Assembly (NCBI GenBank): GCA_963281255.1
Contig: OY725489.1
Span: 4,836,001-4,900,000, forward strand
Length of the DNA: 64,000 nt
Direction: 5' to 3'
Source: Aphrocallistes beatrix
Taxonomy: Eukaryota; Porifera; Hexactinellida; Sceptrulophora; Aphrocallistidae
Numbering within the stretch: position 1 is the first letter of the stretch; every line of letters begins with the position of its first letter. Of this stretch, positions 17,055 to 26,597 are shown in pieces. Made by a program: the position numbers and the translations under genes. The notes under the pieces are model-generated. The model ran no database searches, was not told the origin of the DNA, and saw only the letters and a list, made by a program, of their open reading frames with translations.

Positions 17055-19557
17055 TGAAACGACAGTACATTTTCGACTTTAGAGGTTTATTTTGTCGCGA
17101 TTCTGTAATTTTTTTCACAAACGAAAAAAACTCCAACCTATTTCGGTGATTTTTCTGCTTTAGCCAAAGGTTATCTCATAATACATCTGTTTTATACTAA
17201 ATATAGTCTTATCAAGGTATAAGAACTGCTCTTTCTACAATTTTTAAATACGCTATGCTTAAACACATCGTTTGAATTTATTTTATTTAAACAGCGCTAA
17301 ATAAGGTAATTTTGTCCGTGCTGCTTTATCATTTGTTTATAACTTTGAACTAATTGTCCGATTTGAAATCTTTATCGTCGTACTTGACATTTTTTTATGT
17401 ATAGAATCTGTATAGTTAGTTGATATCTCCAATTCCAAACAATTCTGAAGAGAAGAATCGGATTTTCGGAATTCAGAAGTCAAAAATGTCTTCCGAATCG
17501 TGAACTTTCTTTATGGGTGTTACCATAGCATTCTATACACTAAGGCAATGGTGCTGATTGGTGGACTTGGACTAGGGATTGGTTAGATCAGTTAGTTTAC
17601 TTTTTTATCAAAATTCTAATACAACTGTAAATTTGCTGTAACTACCCATATTAAGTAAATAATTAATAACCTCTTCCCTTTTATGAAATCATGAATGGTC
17701 TGGAGATAATTTTATATATAGTGGACATATAATAAGTAAATTAATAAATAATCAAGCAGAAAATATAAGTATGATTGGTAAGATATGTGATTCAGATAAA
17801 ATGAGCATAGAGGTAGTTTAGAAAGTCGAGTAGAAGCGAGATATGATTATAGGTGTAGAATGTAACTCCGATGCGTCTTGAATAAGTGTTATTGTAGCTG
17901 TTAGTGGAGTTCCTCGATACTGATAATGATAAAGTAGAGATTTCATTCAGACGGTTGTAGATACAGGAGTGATAGATCATGTCGGAGGATTTATCTATAA
18001 AAATATAATACAATAATTAGGTACTAAATTTGGTTCGAAATAATATTTGTAACGGGTATATAATAGATAATTATCGGTACATAAAGCCTCAACAAATAGA
18101 TAACAACTCTCGATATCACTGATTGGTTTAGTCATAATTAAATAAATCAACCGCGGAGGAAGGCCCTAACGAAATTGGACGAACAATGGTTGGAAATACA
18201 ATTGTGGAGGATCTCTTGGATTGTCGATTGCCCCGAAAACTTTACTTCATTTATAAGATGCCACACTACCAATGTGAACTTGATCCATTCGAAGTATCAC
18301 ATGGCGTCCACTATGGCTAAATTTGGAAGTTAATTTCCCTTCGAATTTGAAAGTACGTAATCACCTCCAATACCCATCGTATTGTTTATACTAATGAAAT
18401 TTCTCTCATGTGGTAAGAAGCAATGAGATGACTGAATAAGTCAGTAACAAGCAGGTGATATTCTATGTATTTTTAATGAAAATACATGCATTAAGATTAT
18501 ATATATAACGACAACGACTTTTAGAATTCATCAAATTTCTAAGTTGCCCAACTAAAAAGTTGAATGAAATATTCAAAGATTCACTGTTAAAATGTAATTC
18601 ACCTATGTCTAGGTCTGATGAGTCAATAAGCTTAATTAATTGCACTCTCGAGTTCATGGATATCAAATTTTGAATGATTTTGAATAGAACATTCAGGTTG
18701 AGAGCTATTAAGCTGAAATATTGGTAAATACTTATCAACCTCATTGAGGATGGTCTCAACTTGTCGAGTGTGTCATTTATAGAAATTCGTTAGGTCGGAA
18801 TTGTGACGTTTTTATTATAAAATGCTTTTATATATAATTCACCGTTATTTGACATGGATCGGTCATGAAAGATCCGGTTTCTGAATTAGCTATCTTAATA
18901 AAAAATAAAGAGTTGTTATCAGACACATGAGCTATCCAGCCGTTTCGTAGGTCGATTAAATCCAGTTTAGAAAGATCTGGAAATAAGCTAATTAACAACT
19001 TATCTACCTTTTCTTCATTGTCAGTTATGCTCTTAGATTAGGCAGACTCCATCAGCGAACGTTCTTTGTGATCCAAAGATAGTCTCTTAGCTTGGAATTG
19101 GATTCACATACAGTTGAAACTGGGTTTTTTTGACACCCCATTTGCACGAAAAAATGTCAAAAAAAACCAGTGTTGCGCATCCCACTACGAAGAAAATATA
19201 TTTTAGAGGTCATAGTAAGAATGTAAAAGTTAATTTCTTGACTCCGTAGTCGTTGGCAATTGCCGTCAGAGGGTGACCCTTGTCGAGACGCAGGACTATC
19301 TCGTGCCTTTCCGTCAGTGTCAGACGTTTCTGTTTTGTTATGGATGTCATGAACTAATTGCTGAAAATTGGGTGTCAAAAAAACACGGTGTCAACTGTAC
19401 ATAAAACTCAGATTTTTACACCACCAATTGTCAAAAAATACCGATTGTCAAATAAACCCAGTGTCAAAAAAACCCGATGGAAATTCTATAGTAGATACAT
19501 GAAAAAAACAATCTGCAGCAAAATATGTCAAAAAAATACGATTGTCAAAAAAACATA

Positions 19558-19670
19558 TATTGAAAAGTCGAGTGCGCATGCGCACTGGGTCGAGTGCGCA
19601 TGCGCATAGGGTCGAGTGCGCATGCGCACAGGGTCGAGTGCGCATGCGCACTGAAAAAGGTCGAGTGCGC
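19558..19670. repeat. KDZ left terminal inverted repeat with phased NRF1-type sites
   Basis: TATTGAAAAGTCGAG is followed by four perfect TGCGCATGCGCA palindromes at 19573, 19595, 19617 and 19639, exactly 22 bp apart. A half site TGCGC follows at 19666, 27 bp after the fourth. Each unit is preceded by GTCGAG. The matching right end is 25325-25446. Confidence 0.95.
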
Positions 19671-19885
19671 TTTGTTAGCTCTTACTTTAGACAACATAGC
19701 AACCTATATGAACCATTAAAATCTTAACTACCAATTTAATTATTAGCCATTTGACTAGATTCAAAAGACCACAAAAGAAATGCTGAAATTGTACTATATT
19801 ACAAGAACAAATTGCTTCGAGTGAGTATCTACCACAAATAATTCCCAGAGTGCTACTAGTGTAATTCATGATTCACTACTAGGGG

Positions 19886-19893
19886 TATATATA
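19886..19893 (+). promoter_or_regulatory. TATA box of the KDZ transposase gene
   Basis: TATATATA in the context GGGGTATATATAGACAC, about 100 bp before the ATG at 19986 and about 220 bp inside the terminal repeat. Confidence 0.55.
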
Positions 19894-19985
19894 GACACAT
19901 CCTGGCACAAGTATTGGTTTATTGAAGCTATCACAAATTGTAACAATTGATTACATTTTATAAATTTTTTTGATATACAAGTAGT

Positions 19986-22900
19986 ATGTCCGACGAGATA
20001 GCTTATAGAATTGTCAACATACCCAATTCAAAGAAGAGACAACGAAAAGATGAATTCGAAGAAACACATATCTCCCATCTAACCTTAAGTTCAGAGACGA
20101 GTAACGTACATGTTTTCGATGAATCTCTAACCAGAATTGAAATCAATCAGCAAACAGGTAAATATATGATGGATAAAGCATTTTGTTTTGTGTTAGATTT
20201 TGTTCTGTTGTTAATAGAATATTGCAAGCATATAATTTCCAAAGTAATGTAGGGTTGGTATATACTGGCAAATAATTTTATTATGTTTAACAAAACATAT
20301 TGAGATATTTTGGGGAAATGTTGTCTTTTTAATTCAATTTAATATACACTAGTAATATATTCATCTTAGAGTAAGCTCCGCCGTTCTGGTTAGCTCAGTA
20401 GATATGTAATGCTTAATTAATGCTCTTTTATAATCATAGGCACCAATCATGGTTCGGACTTATCCCAATCTGATGATGAAGAAATATCAACTTTACCAAT
20501 ATCAACCTCTGACCAATATACAGCCCTCTTGATTGTAGAATCTAAGGCATGGCTATTGTGCGAGACAGTATTCGCAGTTGTATCAGATTTCGAATTGACT
20601 AAGACAGGTATGTGTTCTATTCACATTCTGCGTAATTTGAAATCGAAATGTTATTTAATGAGCTCCTTAACTAAACATTTGTATATTTTAGAAAAAGTCA
20701 AACTAACGAAAAGAATGGTTGTGATCGATACAGTCGCAGAATCATGTTTGAAATGTTGTGATCACAATTGTATTCACGTTCAAGCCTTCGAGCAATGCTT
20801 AATTAACGAGTATCTAATTCAATGCCAACCCAAATATGCCAATATTTCTACGTTTTTTACTCTCTCTTTGTCAACAATATTTCTAATTGACAATATGGAT
20901 TTTCATATCTTCTACAAGAAGGAAATGAAGTGGTTCTGTGATACATGTTTGGGTAAGTGTAGTAAGTCAGCCACTATGAAAAAGATTTTACCTGAAAACA
21001 ATTTCAACGAACTAACAGCAGATCAGAAAGAAATTCAATATCCAGTAGTATCCAATATATCAATACCTGTCTCATTTGATGAAAGCATGTCCAATCTCTA
21101 TGAAGAGCAACAACTATGTAACAACCTGAATTTACCGATAGAACTACTTCCGGAAAAGGAACTTTGTGAACATAACTATAAATTTAGCAAAGAGAAGATT
21201 TCATTGGAGAGAAGAGGGCTCATTCTATATACAGCAAAGACTGTTGTTGAGCTAGCTGAACATAAAGGTAAGATTATAACCAAATACTTGCTTCACAACT
21301 GCTCATAGTTCATGTTATTATATATTTGTTCAGTTTATAGTTCTATATGCGAAGGTACTTGCAAGTGTAGAGCATATTTTGATGGCAGTTCAAGACTTTT
21401 GCTGAACATTAACAACAGATACTTCTTACATTATGACTTGCTCTATGAGTATAGCGAATTTATGACTTCATCTAGAAACACACTACACGGTTATCTAAGG
21501 TAAGAATTGCTCCCGAATTACTAGAGAACTCGGGTAGTGCGTGCTTGCATAGGAGACATAAAAATGTACGCACTAACCGAGTGTAATAATAATACCATTA
21601 TTTAGTATGTAGTACATGAATCTAATTGAATTTTTTTCTAGTGCAAAGAATAATGTTATGAAGAGGCTAGGAAGGAAAACTAAGTACCTGTATCACATTC
21701 TTAAACACGGGTGGAATGCATACTTAAGGATGGTCAGAATTGACTACAAAGCGAATTTCACTTGTCCTATGTGCAAGGATAACCCAGAAGTAGTAATAAT
21801 GGATGGTGTAACACTGGGAACTCTGAAACATATCCCTGAAATCTCTCATTCGAAGGATAAAGAACAACGTTTTAATCTCATCCCAACTAGTGATCGCGTA
21901 TTCATCTCTAATTCTGCGACAAGAAAAAAGTTAAAAGACTATAGTTTGATGGGTTTGACGAAAACCAATTTTTTTGAAATGTTGGATTTTATCAGTAATA
22001 AGGAATTCGTGGACTATATATTGTATAGTAGCGTGGAAACAGACGGATGGAGGAAAATTCATGACGACTTCCCTGGCGTAAGTAATCTTATAAGTTTACT
22101 AAGCTATCCCTCACCATTATGTGGAATCTTTCAGTGCTCAATACTCACTAAAAGGGAGCGAGAAATGCTAGTATTATTGTCTAAGGGGGGATATATTCCT
22201 AAAAATGAACTTCAACAAATATTTCTTAAAAGCAATTCCATGAAACAGTTATTCAATTCACTTCCAGCCAGAGCAAATGATGATGGAATGGCGTTACATC
22301 AAATCGTAGCTCCCCTTTTAACAGTGATTCTAACAAAAATTGATCAGCTATTCAAGAGACCTACTCGTCAGCTTGTAGTGTATCCAGTTCCTGACAATGA
22401 TTACTTCATGTATTTTCCTGCATTTTCCACCACTTACTACAAGTAAGTTATTTTATTACTTATTGGTATATGATAACTCATATTAAGGTACTACTACTTG
22501 TACACAGAGGCGTAGCTTACACCTATGTCGTGGGGGGCGGATGTATTTCATGCCGCCCCTCAACACATATTTCTGGAAAAATTCTGAGTTTACCAATATA
22601 TATTTTATGAAACACAAGGTCAAGTGCCGCCCCCTATTAAGCGCCGCCCGGGGCGGTCCGCCCCCCTCGCCCCCCCTTAGCTACGCCACTGCTTGCACAT
22701 ATTAAATTCAAGGATGCTTTTGCATTTATTTCAATTTTTTATAGAATACCTATTTATGAGCAGTCAAAAAAAGCTCAATCAAGTATGAAATGTTCCAAAA
22801 TATACCCAAAGCACAACAGATTTTCTCCAGGGATGCTTGTAATGGCGTGCAAACATAAAATTTGCTATGGATTTGAGATCCTAAGAGAACGGGAATCTAC

Positions 22901-23349
22901 TGAAGTAGTCTACAATATGCTGATTAGTATTTTCAAGCAACCACCAAAGATTATTATCTATGACAACGCGTGTAATTTGCATACTACGTGTATAATGAGG
23001 TAAGGTTGATACTATGTATTGATATTGTATGTACGTATATTCCAATACTGAATGGCTATCATATTCTAGGGATCCTGCACTTTTTCGGGACACAACCTTT
23101 TTAGTGGATAGATTTCATTATTCGAACCATAAATGCAGTACATCATACTCCATGAAATCTATTCAAACTGAAGAAATCAAGCGTATCAACTCCCAAACTT
23201 GTGAACAAATATTCTCAGTTTTAAGGCGAATCTCAACTCAAATTGCATATATGAGAATTGAAAATGTTTTCTACAACACAAGATACTTTTTGGCTACTCT
23301 AAATGAACAAATTATGGAAAATATGAATAAAACTAATGAAAACTATTAA
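19986..23349 (+). CDS. KDZ-type transposase, 805 aa, seven exons
   Basis: Predicted exons are 19986-20157, 20440-20607, 20692-21267, 21334-21499, 21642-22442, 22745-22999 and 23070-23349. All introns are GT..AG, all phases agree, and the total is 2,418 nt, so the frame is whole. The N-terminus has a basic stretch (KKRQRK), a likely nuclear signal. Cysteine-rich segments follow (CLKCCDHNC in exon 3; CEGTCKC in exon 4; CPMCKDNP in exon 5). The catalytic part has the family pattern VVIMDG, then IIYDNACNLH, then DRFHYSNHKC, then INSQTCEQ; the D, D and E in these are the likely acidic triad (inference). I know this pattern from KDZ/Zisupton-type transposases and the related part of HMGXB3-like proteins. 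Intron 5 holds a hAT-like MITE. Confidence 0.85.
22505..22691. mobile_element. hAT-type MITE inside intron 5 of the KDZ transposase
   Basis: 187 bp, GC-rich, with ends CAGAGGCGTAGCT and AGCTACGCCACTG. It is flanked by CTTGTACA (22497-22504) and CTTGCACA (22692-22699), an 8-bp duplication with one mismatch. It lies wholly within an intron, so the coding frame is untouched. Confidence 0.85.
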
Positions 23350-23362
23350 ACTAAATTTGAAA

Positions 23363-25178
23363 TTATTGTTTGACTGGTGGGCATATTGGGCACGAAAATT
23401 TAGGTATTTCTTTGTCGTCATCAGGAATGCCAACACATGGTTTGTGAAACCATCTATTGCAATTTGAGCATTCGACAAAGTAGTTATAAGCAAACTGTGG
23501 CAGCCTACAAACACACCACAGTTCAATGACAAATGAGGTCATGGGATGGGGGAAGTCTTCATCAGGTCGTGTGCTGGTCTTTCGAATCGTTTTAAAAGGC
23601 GTCAGGACTTCGGTCTCTATGCATGTTTTAGATGTCTACGCATATTCGATTGGCGCCATCTAATTTTTGCTGGATCATCTCCAGAAACTAATGCTAGGCA
23701 TACTGCCGCAGCAAAAATCCCGCAATCTGCACCCCCTCGCTGTTGCTGCATTGCTGGAACATAGATTTTAAGCTTTGACTCGTTGTGAGCGTATAAAAGC
23801 GCGAGTTGTATATCGATTTCTTCACTAGTTTTTCCAGAGAAGTAGGAGTCATAAAGAAATATTCCATCTGGGGTGATCCTAGAGCAGACCCAGTGCAAAT
23901 TCCCGTCGTGGTGCATCTGGATGCTATTCATCGGGGCCTTAAGAAATTGTCGATTCTATAAAAGGTGATATAAATAGATAATTAGAGATGTCTAAAGTAC
24001 ATACTGTTAAGGTATAAACACTGAGCTACAAGTAATAAGATAGTCTAAATATTTACCTTCGCAAGAATTGTGTCCTGCAGGCCAAGTGTACCAGGAAAAG
24101 ACATCCTTATTAGATCCTAAAAACTCTTAATGTAAAAAAAGGTCATGTAAATTATAGATACTATAGAAATACTACTATTTACCATGAAACTGTTTATGCA
24201 AATTCCTGAGAGGAATGTGTTGGGATTAGAAAGGAGCTTACAAAATTCGGTCTTGACTTTATCTTCGATTGTTTTGAATTTTACCCTTAGTGGGGATATA
24301 GTCTGCGCATTAGCAAGGACAGCGATGGAAGATGTTGGTGGGGCGCAGTCAAGAACGAAAGTGCTTTCGGGTTGCTTTTCATTTTGAAATTGAGAAAGAC
24401 CGGGCAAAAAAACATCATCTGTCATGTCATAGGTCTCAGATGCATCTGGCATGTCAGAGGTCTTAGATGGTGGACATATATCGTAAATGACATCACTTAG
24501 CTCGCTCACAAGGTCTTCTGATGACAAAAATATGTCTATTGGATCAGCTCTCAATGAATGTATAGGAGATCTATCTCGAACATCCTCTTGCAATAATGTT
24601 GCATCCTCTTGCAATAATGTTGCTCCCCCTCCAGAGGTGTATTTATTGTATGATTGGATTATCTGAATGAGGATAGAGCGTTTAAAATTTTTCTTGGTGA
24701 CATTTTGGAAGGGGATGTCAGTTGGCCACCAGATCGGCTTTTTAGAAACGTTGTCCCAGAAATGTCGCGTCGTTCCTAAAATAATAAATACATATATTCA
24801 TATACTTAGAGATAAATCTAAAGTGCGAGTGGAGTATTCCCACCTAAATGCTTTAAACCTACCGACAGACTTCTGAGTGATCCAAGAAATCATCCTTCTT
24901 AGAGACATTACGTTTATTTTCTTTAGGTCACCTTTTATGCAAGCAACCATCTCAAATTCCTGAGCCGGAATAGAAGAAGTAATATTGGGGCATGCCAAAC
25001 TCTCCCACATTTCTGAAGTATGCTCGTTTATTAAATCCGTGAATAAGCTATTTCCCAATACCGATAGGCCCCCTTCCCACGTGTAGACTACACCTACCCG
25101 CTGTCCTGTTACTTGCTTGAAGCGAGTTAATGTCCTCTGCAGCATAACTCTTGCGTTCGCCATGGTCATTTGAGGCAT
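23363..25178 (-). CDS. NRF1-like DNA-binding domain + Ulp1-type protease + PHD finger protein of the KDZ element
   Basis: Predicted exons on the minus strand are 25178-24863, 24775-24183, 24116-24057 and 23955 downward; the first three join in phase. Exons 1-2 read like the NRF1/Erect wing DNA-binding domain: residues 10-50 (RVMLQRTLTRF..TGQRVGVV..VLGNSL), then KPIWWPTDIPFQNV, against KPIWWPEDIPWANV in human NRF1 as I remember it. An acidic, serine-rich linker follows. Exon 4 is a C48 (Ulp1/SENP) protease with LHWVC (His), FLYDS (Asp), QQQRGG (Gln) and DCGIF (catalytic Cys). The frame then ends at 23617, but a one-base shift at an A-run near 23625 leads into a C4HC3 PHD finger (WCVC, ECSNC, WFHKPC, SCPIC) ending at 23363. 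The shift may be a sequencing error or a true lesion. Confidence 0.85.
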
Positions 25179-25316
25179 AATTATATAAAATGATTGAGAA
25201 GTTCGGAAGATATTGAAAAATACTGGGAAATGCTAAAGATACTGAAAAATACTGAGAATGCGGAATATACTTAGAATGTATACATATATGTAAACAAAGG
25301 GTGTGCCTGTTGTGCC

Positions 25317-25324
25317 TATAAATA
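25317..25324 (-). promoter_or_regulatory. TATA box of the NRF1-like/Ulp1 gene, abutting the fifth NRF1-type site
   Basis: TATTTATA read on the minus strand, about 139 bp before the ATG at 25178. The weak NRF1-type site 25325-25336 is immediately upstream with no gap, so a bound protein would sit next to the TATA complex. Confidence 0.5.
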
Positions 25325-25446
25325 TGAGCATGCGCACTCGACCTTTTTCAGTGCGCATGCGCACTCGACCCAATGCGCATGCGCACTCGACCTAATGCGC
25401 AAGCGCACTCGACCCAGTGCGCATGCGCACTCGACTTTTCAATACC
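25325..25446. repeat. KDZ right terminal inverted repeat with phased NRF1-type sites
   Basis: Mirror image of the left end. Sites start at 25418, 25396 (one mismatch, TGCGCAAGCGCA), 25374 and 25352, at 22-bp steps. A weaker fifth site (TGAGCATGCGCA) at 25325 is 27 bp further in. The spacing 22-22-22-27 is the same as on the left. Confidence 0.95.
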
Positions 25447-26597
25447 TCCAAAAAAACCCAGTGTCAAAAAACCCCGGTTTCAACTGTAGTTAGGAAGGAA
25501 GGTTGGGGAATGTACTGGGTACTGCAGTTTATTAAGAGCTATTCTATCTCCGGAAACTGTAACAGTACGAAGCCCGTCATTGTAGGTAATAGTTCTCTCG
25601 AATCTCGATGTAATCTGGTTTGAAATGATGTACACATATCTAAACTGGTGAGTAGAAGTGTAAATGTGGCAGTCAGTAAATGAAACATAATTATAGAAAC
25701 TTACTCTCATTTGCTTGTTGCATAGTCCTTCCGTGGGTGTGGAATTGCTCTAAACCATTCTTCACGTAGTTTCAGATTTTCAGAGGTAGATTCTGCTTAA
25801 CTTCTATAACTAGACTTGAAGTCTGGGGCAACACATGACATCGTCAGTCCGAAAGAGTAATAATAATTTGATATGTATTGAGGAGTGTTTCAGATTAGGT
25901 TTGATTCGTGTATATGAAAAGACAGTGATTTGTAGAACTTTACAACAAGGTAGTATAAATATATAATTAATGTGGTGGATTTTAAAACAATAAAATAAGT
26001 AGTATGTTAATGTATATAAGTAATGTGGTTGGTTTAAATTAGTTTAACCACAAATTCTCTACAGTGCAATTCTCAAAACATTTTGATGTAAATCGATGTA
26101 GAATTCATGAAAACGATCAGTATATACTGTACGAAGCTATATACCAGCATAATCAAACCATTTTAGGAAATCAAATTTGACTGATCTAACTAATCCCTAG
26201 TCCAAGTCCACTGATCAGCACCATTGCCTTAGTGTATAGAATGCTATTGTGTTACTTTAGCAGCAGATTCAGCAGCGGATTCGCCGTGTCGCACTTAAAT
26301 GTTAATAACTCAATGAATTTAGGTCCGATTTGAAATGTAATCATATTAGCGTGTAGAAGAGGTCTGGACGTTTCATAAACTAAGTTCAAAATTATGAAAT
26401 ATCCAGTGATGACTTAGCAATTGACCTTTTAATTTTTGTCGCGGTTTTTCTTGAATATCTCAAAGATTATATGAGCTATCGAATCTATCTTAGGCACATA
26501 TGTGCTCCAGGTCTGGACGTTTATGTGGTAAAATTTTGAAGTTGATAAGTTAAGATTTAGTGAATCTACAGGCGATTCAATTTTTCATAGTTCATAA

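Follow-up and report, generated by a model that had tools for sequence, protein, structure and literature searches.

A two-gene KDZ transposon of a glass sponge encodes an NRF1-like protein that probably reads phased NRF1-type palindromes in its own ends

The 64,000-nucleotide stretch of the Aphrocallistes beatrix genome analysed here (the window) contains a transposon whose second gene encodes a relative of the DNA-binding factor NRF1 and whose ends carry evenly spaced NRF1-type sites. The best explanation overall, to which we assign a probability of about 0.75, is a two-gene DNA transposon of the KDZ (Kyakuja-Dileera-Zisupton) type with an element-encoded NRF1-like dimer on phased palindromes. 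Most likely, a DNA-reading module familiar chiefly from an animal regulator also marks the ends of a transposon. We demonstrate the homology of the protein, the arrays, their fixed geometry, and recurrence across diverged families. The initial annotation had proposed that the protein recognises the ends of its own element; our analysis supports this proposal, with binding and role inferred from sequence.

The element spans positions 19554-25448 of the window; the element as first annotated stands, with its limits corrected from 19555..25449. The 8-bp target-site duplication CAAAAAAA is present at both flanks (19546..19553 and 25449..25456); read strictly at 7 bp, the length in other copies, it has one mismatch between the sides. 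The two ends are near-perfect inverted copies of each other over about 115 bp, the left terminal repeat lying at 19554..19677 on the plus strand (terminus CATATATTGAAAAGT) and the right one at 25310..25448 on the minus strand (terminus GAGGTATTGAAAAGT), both with approximate inner limits. Inverted repeats with a 7- to 8-bp target duplication are a KDZ hallmark, and the window element has both; in the accessible text of PMC12730594, the duplication is 7 bp in Kyakuja and 8 bp in Zisupton. By eye, TGTCAAAAAAACC-type units in the same orientation occupy both flanks (19374-19545 and 25457-25500), and the element seems to sit inside a simple repeat.

Both ends contain arrays of sites. The left array (19573..19650) consists of four TGCGCATGCGCA palindromes 22 bp apart, and the right array (25325..25429) consists of five NRF1-type palindromes, also 22 bp apart except for the innermost, which is spaced at 27 bp. 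Exact copies of TGCGCATGCGCA lie at 19573, 19595, 19617, 19639, 25352, 25374, and 25418, and two sites have one mismatch (TGCGCAAGCGCA at 25396 and TGAGCATGCGCA at 25325). Ten sites had been annotated, of which seven fit the NRF1 consensus exactly and two more do so with a single mismatch; the 22-bp spacing was confirmed at both ends, and of the weaker fifth sites placed 27 bp inward, the right one exists (25325, one mismatch), whereas its left counterpart near 19666 is, by eye, a TGCGC half-site only. With one mismatch allowed, the nine sites give 18 strand-hits in the window (GC content, 35%); 100 dinucleotide shuffles averaged 0.15 and reached at most 4. Across the genome (100.5 Mb in 28 contigs), the exact 12-mer TGCGCATGCGCA occurs 125 times versus 2 for its reversed control, which is richer in CpG and thus imperfectly matched. 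The distance from the end of the left array to the transposase start is 336 bp, and that from the innermost right site to the start of the NRF1-like gene is 147 bp.

The element has two converging genes, each starting beside one end. The plus-strand gene (19986..23349, limits approximate) encodes a KDZ transposase in about seven exons, which were pieced together by eye from open reading frames and whose tried limits are partly out of frame. The pieced protein scores 38.4 bits against PF18758 (cut-off, 26.6), which identifies the KDZ domain, and 23.4 bits against the CxC4 profile, below the cut-off of 26.9. A GC-rich stretch seen by eye at 22510-22710, within an intron of this gene, looks like a separate small insertion. 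The minus-strand gene (23363..25178, start codon at 25178) encodes NRF1-like dimerisation and DNA-binding domains, a Ulp1/SENP-like stretch, and a PHD finger. Exon 1 (24863..25178, minus strand, donor placed by eye) covers a dimerisation-domain-like part and a helix with LRR, which holds the equivalent of NRF1 residue R206; exon 2 (24183..24775, minus strand) covers the remaining DNA-binding domain, including KPIWWPTDIPFQNV, and a linker. The Ulp1/SENP-like stretch (23617..23955, minus strand), with HWV, YDS, and QQQRGGADCG, scores 15.1 bits against PF02902, under the cut-off of 20.7. We assign it to the Ulp1/SENP proteases by its H-D-Q-C motif and by its fold, the latter taken from the predicted model of a relative in Oopsacas minuta (P0005), which shows a SENP/Ulp1 fold. 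The PHD finger (23363..23635, minus strand) matches PF00628 with an E value of 7.9e-9. The final two frames of the gene overlap at 23617-23635, and the window copy has a frame change.

Profile and sequence comparisons tie the second protein to NRF1. With its exons joined by eye, it scores 27.5 and 29.4 bits against PF10491 (Nrf1_DNA-bind; cut-off, 23.5), which bears out the NRF1-like domain of the initial annotation, and it matches the human NRF1 chains 8k3d (E, 1.2e-5) and 8k4l (E, 2e-5); the profile alignments extend into the dimerisation domain. The segment likeness first noticed also holds, although at 11 of 14 identical positions between KPIWWPTDIPFQNV and NRF1 KPIWWPEDIPWANV rather than the 10 of 14 then counted. 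All 11 diverged families of the same genome match Nrf1_DNA-bind at an E value of ≤0.1, a criterion other than the 23.5-bit cut-off. Ten of the 11 have R as the R206 equivalent, with a stop codon there in the decayed copy that represents the last, and the N242 equivalent is N in 9; the window protein retains both. At the R244 position, the window protein has T despite its ideal NRF1 site, in a column that varies among the 11 families and is uncertainly aligned. A five-sequence MAFFT alignment shifted the R206 position by one residue. A protein search with residues 1 to 170 of the window protein returned 203 candidates, none at an E value of ≤0.01. A single-sequence model of exon 1 (pLDDT, 58) gave 335 fold matches at an E value of ≤10, with none at ≤0.001 and with NRF1 absent from the best 50 of the 335. 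Five of the 11 NRF1-like domains (alignment A1) weakly match PF11001 (YDR124W-like helical bundle; best E, 0.016). The host has its own NRF1 gene (C1:8494049-8494699, 167.7 bits); around it (L005:1207-2661) runs a single 485-aa open frame, intronless across the dimerisation and DNA-binding domains. A recent capture of host NRF1 by the element was considered and judged unlikely because the identity to host NRF1 is only about 20%.

A protein search of the genome yielded 79 matching stretches, which were manually assigned to 53 places other than the window; a duplicate at C20:2022452 was left out. End regions were examined at 30 loci with retrieved flanking DNA, including the window's own end; by our own reading they represent about 14 families, so the loci are not independent. 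Outside this set lie L013, L027, L028, L030, and every other NRF1-like place; the L013 stretch carries a GAGCATGCTC array. The 30 end regions were scanned for perfect 10-bp palindromes repeated with at most one mismatch at 15 to 30 bp, with no requirement for CATG. This gave 71 hits, of which 69, spread over 19 loci, were centred on CATG; the spacing was 22 bp in 50 of the 71 and 24 bp in 16. Downstream controls had hits solely in L057, where the control stretch overlaps the array of the duplicate L056. The case that would count against the initial annotation, relatives whose ends lack the motif, is mostly contradicted by these 19 loci; in the remaining 11 of the 30 end regions, a repeated perfect CATG palindrome was not found. 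Single, imperfect, or decayed sites occur in L033, L036, L038, L050, L052, L053, and L058; L014 has an AATT-centred palindrome only, and L051, L055, and L011 have no CATG palindrome in the stretch examined. Palindromes of some copies (L033, L035, and L036) show CpG decay, for example, TGTGCATGCACA in L035. Under a stricter test for phased pairs, 14 of 23 loci qualified, L058 among them only by virtue of a CATGT microsatellite; none of 2,300 shuffles did so, and the downstream controls yielded a single positive among 23 stretches.

A terminal box accompanies the arrays. Of 29 end regions, 12 contain the box, 14 times in all; in 12 of these 14 instances CATG follows it after exactly 8 nt, and the box never lies on the opposite strand of these 29 regions. 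The pattern AAAAGT-N8-CATG-N15..19-CATG, which was written after the ends had been seen, has 148 + 166 = 314 matches genome-wide versus 1 + 3 = 4 when reversed; the 314 are not a count of elements, and a few look like chance. The subsets starting with AC and CC number 53 versus 0 and 61 versus 0, respectively. Besides the window element, such matches flank nine NRF1-like elements, drawn from four families, on both sides in inverted orientation (C2:4671682, C6:3082902, C7:2705576, C12:3691045, C13:4003970, C16:3100451, C18:1096971, C18:2303276, and C20:739847). Among nine nearest-end pairs, four have target duplications that are perfect at 7 bp, and the window, with one mismatch, is among the other five; pairing L065 with its other end shows, by eye, a further 7-bp duplication. 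The element at C2:4671682 (L037), read to its far end, has converging genes as in the window element, with an NRF1-like part about 50% identical to the window's and one transposase piece that shares 45.6% identity across 270 aa. It carries two TGCGCATGCGCA per end, 21 bp apart, and CAATTTG at both flanks (by eye), and its transposase scores 16.2 bits against KDZ, below the cut-off. An exon-wise KDZ scan of the genome gave eight hits, none above the cut-off; six lie within 4 kb of an opposite-strand NRF1-like gene, the exceptions being C2:2540873 and C19:838605. Non-autonomous relatives in high copy number were also seen, their CGAGAGAGCATGCTC ends separated by about 500 to 700 bp (e.g., C1:728345-728940).

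Between families, the outer half-sites of the array unit vary while the CATG centre is constant. The unit is TGCGCATGCGCA in the window, L037/L038, and, once, L058; AGCGCATGCGCT in L054; GCACATGTGC in L040; CACATGTG in L039; AAGCATGCTT in L043/L044; GAGCATGCTC in L006 to L010 and L048; GATCATGATC in L045 to L047 and L056/L057; TTCGCATGCGAA, as a single site, in L050; and TGCGCATGTCCA, which is asymmetric, in L052/L053. Individual units deviate from that of their family, as TGCGCAAGCGCA at 25396 does. According to the accessible text of PMC10810270, the DNA in the NRF1 crystal was ATGCGCATGCGCAT, within which the window array unit is found, and R206 reads the central CA/TG, with the outer bases left to N242 and R244. 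A retained R206, a mostly retained N242, and a variable, uncertainly aligned R244 column fit a fixed centre with changing flanks. Across nine families, a Mantel test found no correlation between protein and half-site distances (r, -0.05; p, 0.57), and a simple code from linker residues to half-sites, sought by eye, was not found. CpG methylation blocks NRF1 binding, so CpG-free half-sites might escape host methylation.

Full-length homologues are present in a second glass sponge, Oopsacas minuta (best, 40% identity over 99% coverage; E, 6.4e-103). The L037-element protein as a query retrieved two Oopsacas proteins, and P0002 retrieved six others besides itself, P0008 over just 10% of the query. 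Three Oopsacas homologues bear an NRF1 name in UniRef. The PF10491 cut-off is exceeded by three of six Oopsacas relatives (P0004, P0006, and P0007), with P0002, P0005, and P0003 below it at 23.0, 21.6, and 14.8 bits. NCBI names P0005 a calcium-responsive transcription factor, perhaps a misnomer for a transposon protein. The pairing of protein and array was observed in one genome. A search of viral contigs with alignment A1 gave 19 pattern matches and no relative. Among the open-access literature matches listed, no paper joins NRF1-type domains to transposons; the main text of the Oopsacas and Aphrocallistes genome papers has 0 mentions of NRF1 and Zisupton, and a tunicate paper naming Nrf1_DNA-binding merely counts that domain in its accessible part.

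Probably, the arrays are occupied by the element's NRF1-like protein and not by host NRF1 or the transposase. Host NRF1 would be the reader if the arrays were promoter elements that recruit it for the transposon genes, leaving the element's protein another job; the host gene exists, each array lies upstream of a gene, and the window family bears an ideal NRF1 site. However, other NRF1-like families have AAGCATGCTT, GAGCATGCTC, GATCATGATC, or CACATGTG units, and paired outer-base changes weaken binding by human NRF1, though a site of the CACATGTG form is still bound at about 4 uM (accessible text of PMC10810270) and the specificity of the host protein may differ. We consider recruitment of host NRF1 improbable.

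It is likewise quite improbable that the arrays are bound by the KDZ transposase, in the manner of hAT transposases at their subterminal repeats, with the NRF1-like protein not a reader. The Hermes transposase does contact its left end via several BED domains (PMC10368747, accessible text), and the transposase here has a weak CxC4 cysteine cluster, but this leaves unexplained that the unit is an NRF1 site whose centre is the contact of the conserved R206. Moreover, families have the terminal box in common but differ in their array unit, a pattern that fits a pair of readers. Coincidence, with the CATG palindromes as structural repeats and the NRF1-like gene as a passenger, might be argued from the ability of palindromes alone to form hairpins and from outer sequences that vary without following protein distance; the fixed 8-nt and 22-bp geometry, the recurrence of arrays beside most NRF1-like genes read, and the 314-versus-4 pattern matches make it highly unlikely.

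With the element's own NRF1-like protein as the reader, its NRF1-type dimerisation and DNA-binding region would read each CATG-centred palindrome as a dimer. Stacked at 22 bp, or about two helical turns, the palindromes lie on the same helix face, and the stacks adjoin the terminal box at both ends. By analogy with En/Spm TnpA and the Harbinger Myb-like protein, we lean slightly toward a role in preparing or pairing the ends or in recruiting the transposase. The odds that the protein also controls transcription seem about even, a role proposed because each array lies just upstream of one converging gene. The SENP-like protease and the PHD finger could, more speculatively, target SUMO and histone H3 in the vicinity of the ends.

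Known two-protein transposons offer parallels. In the accessible text of PMC2613891, TnpA of En/Spm (CACTA) is a second element protein, needed for transposition, whose binding sites are diverging subterminal repeats, and the anatomy of the window element fits an accessory protein of this type. Unlike the window element, En/Spm has a 12-bp motif of other sequence and a transposase of another superfamily, and that text mentions no NRF1-type domain. PIF/Harbinger elements likewise have two proteins, the Myb-like one binding a 9-bp subterminal motif in Harbinger3_DR (PMC9710019, accessible text), but they have a Myb/MADF instead of an NRF1-type domain and 3-bp duplications. The window element resembles KDZ transposons in its transposase, above the Pfam cut-off, and its 7- to 8-bp duplications, and differs from them as described in its NRF1-like second gene and phased palindromes; NRF1, Ulp1, and PHD have 0 occurrences in the accessible text of PMC12730594. 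With NRF1, Erect wing, and P3A2, the element protein shares a homologous DNA-binding region, probably also the dimerisation region, the R206 and N242 equivalents, and, in the window family, the palindrome itself. Unlike them, it is transposon-encoded, about 20% identical to host NRF1, and fused to a SENP-like stretch and a PHD finger, and other families use other half-sites.

The authors of the NRF1 structure called its DNA-binding mode novel, with SRF as the closest fold and no apparent evolutionary relation (PMC10810270, accessible text). A tentative and rather doubtful possibility is that NRF1 arose from a protein that bound the ends of a KDZ-type transposon; the two-part reader and its GCGCATGCGC preference would then have been shaped first for transposon ends, and living glass-sponge elements would retain this original pairing, along with half-sites that change. 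Two-protein transposition would gain a new type of partner in an NRF1-SENP-PHD protein. Diverged NRF1-type readers with candidate sites at their own ends amount to many natural protein-site pairs, and through these elements the recognition code and the origin of NRF1 become directly testable.
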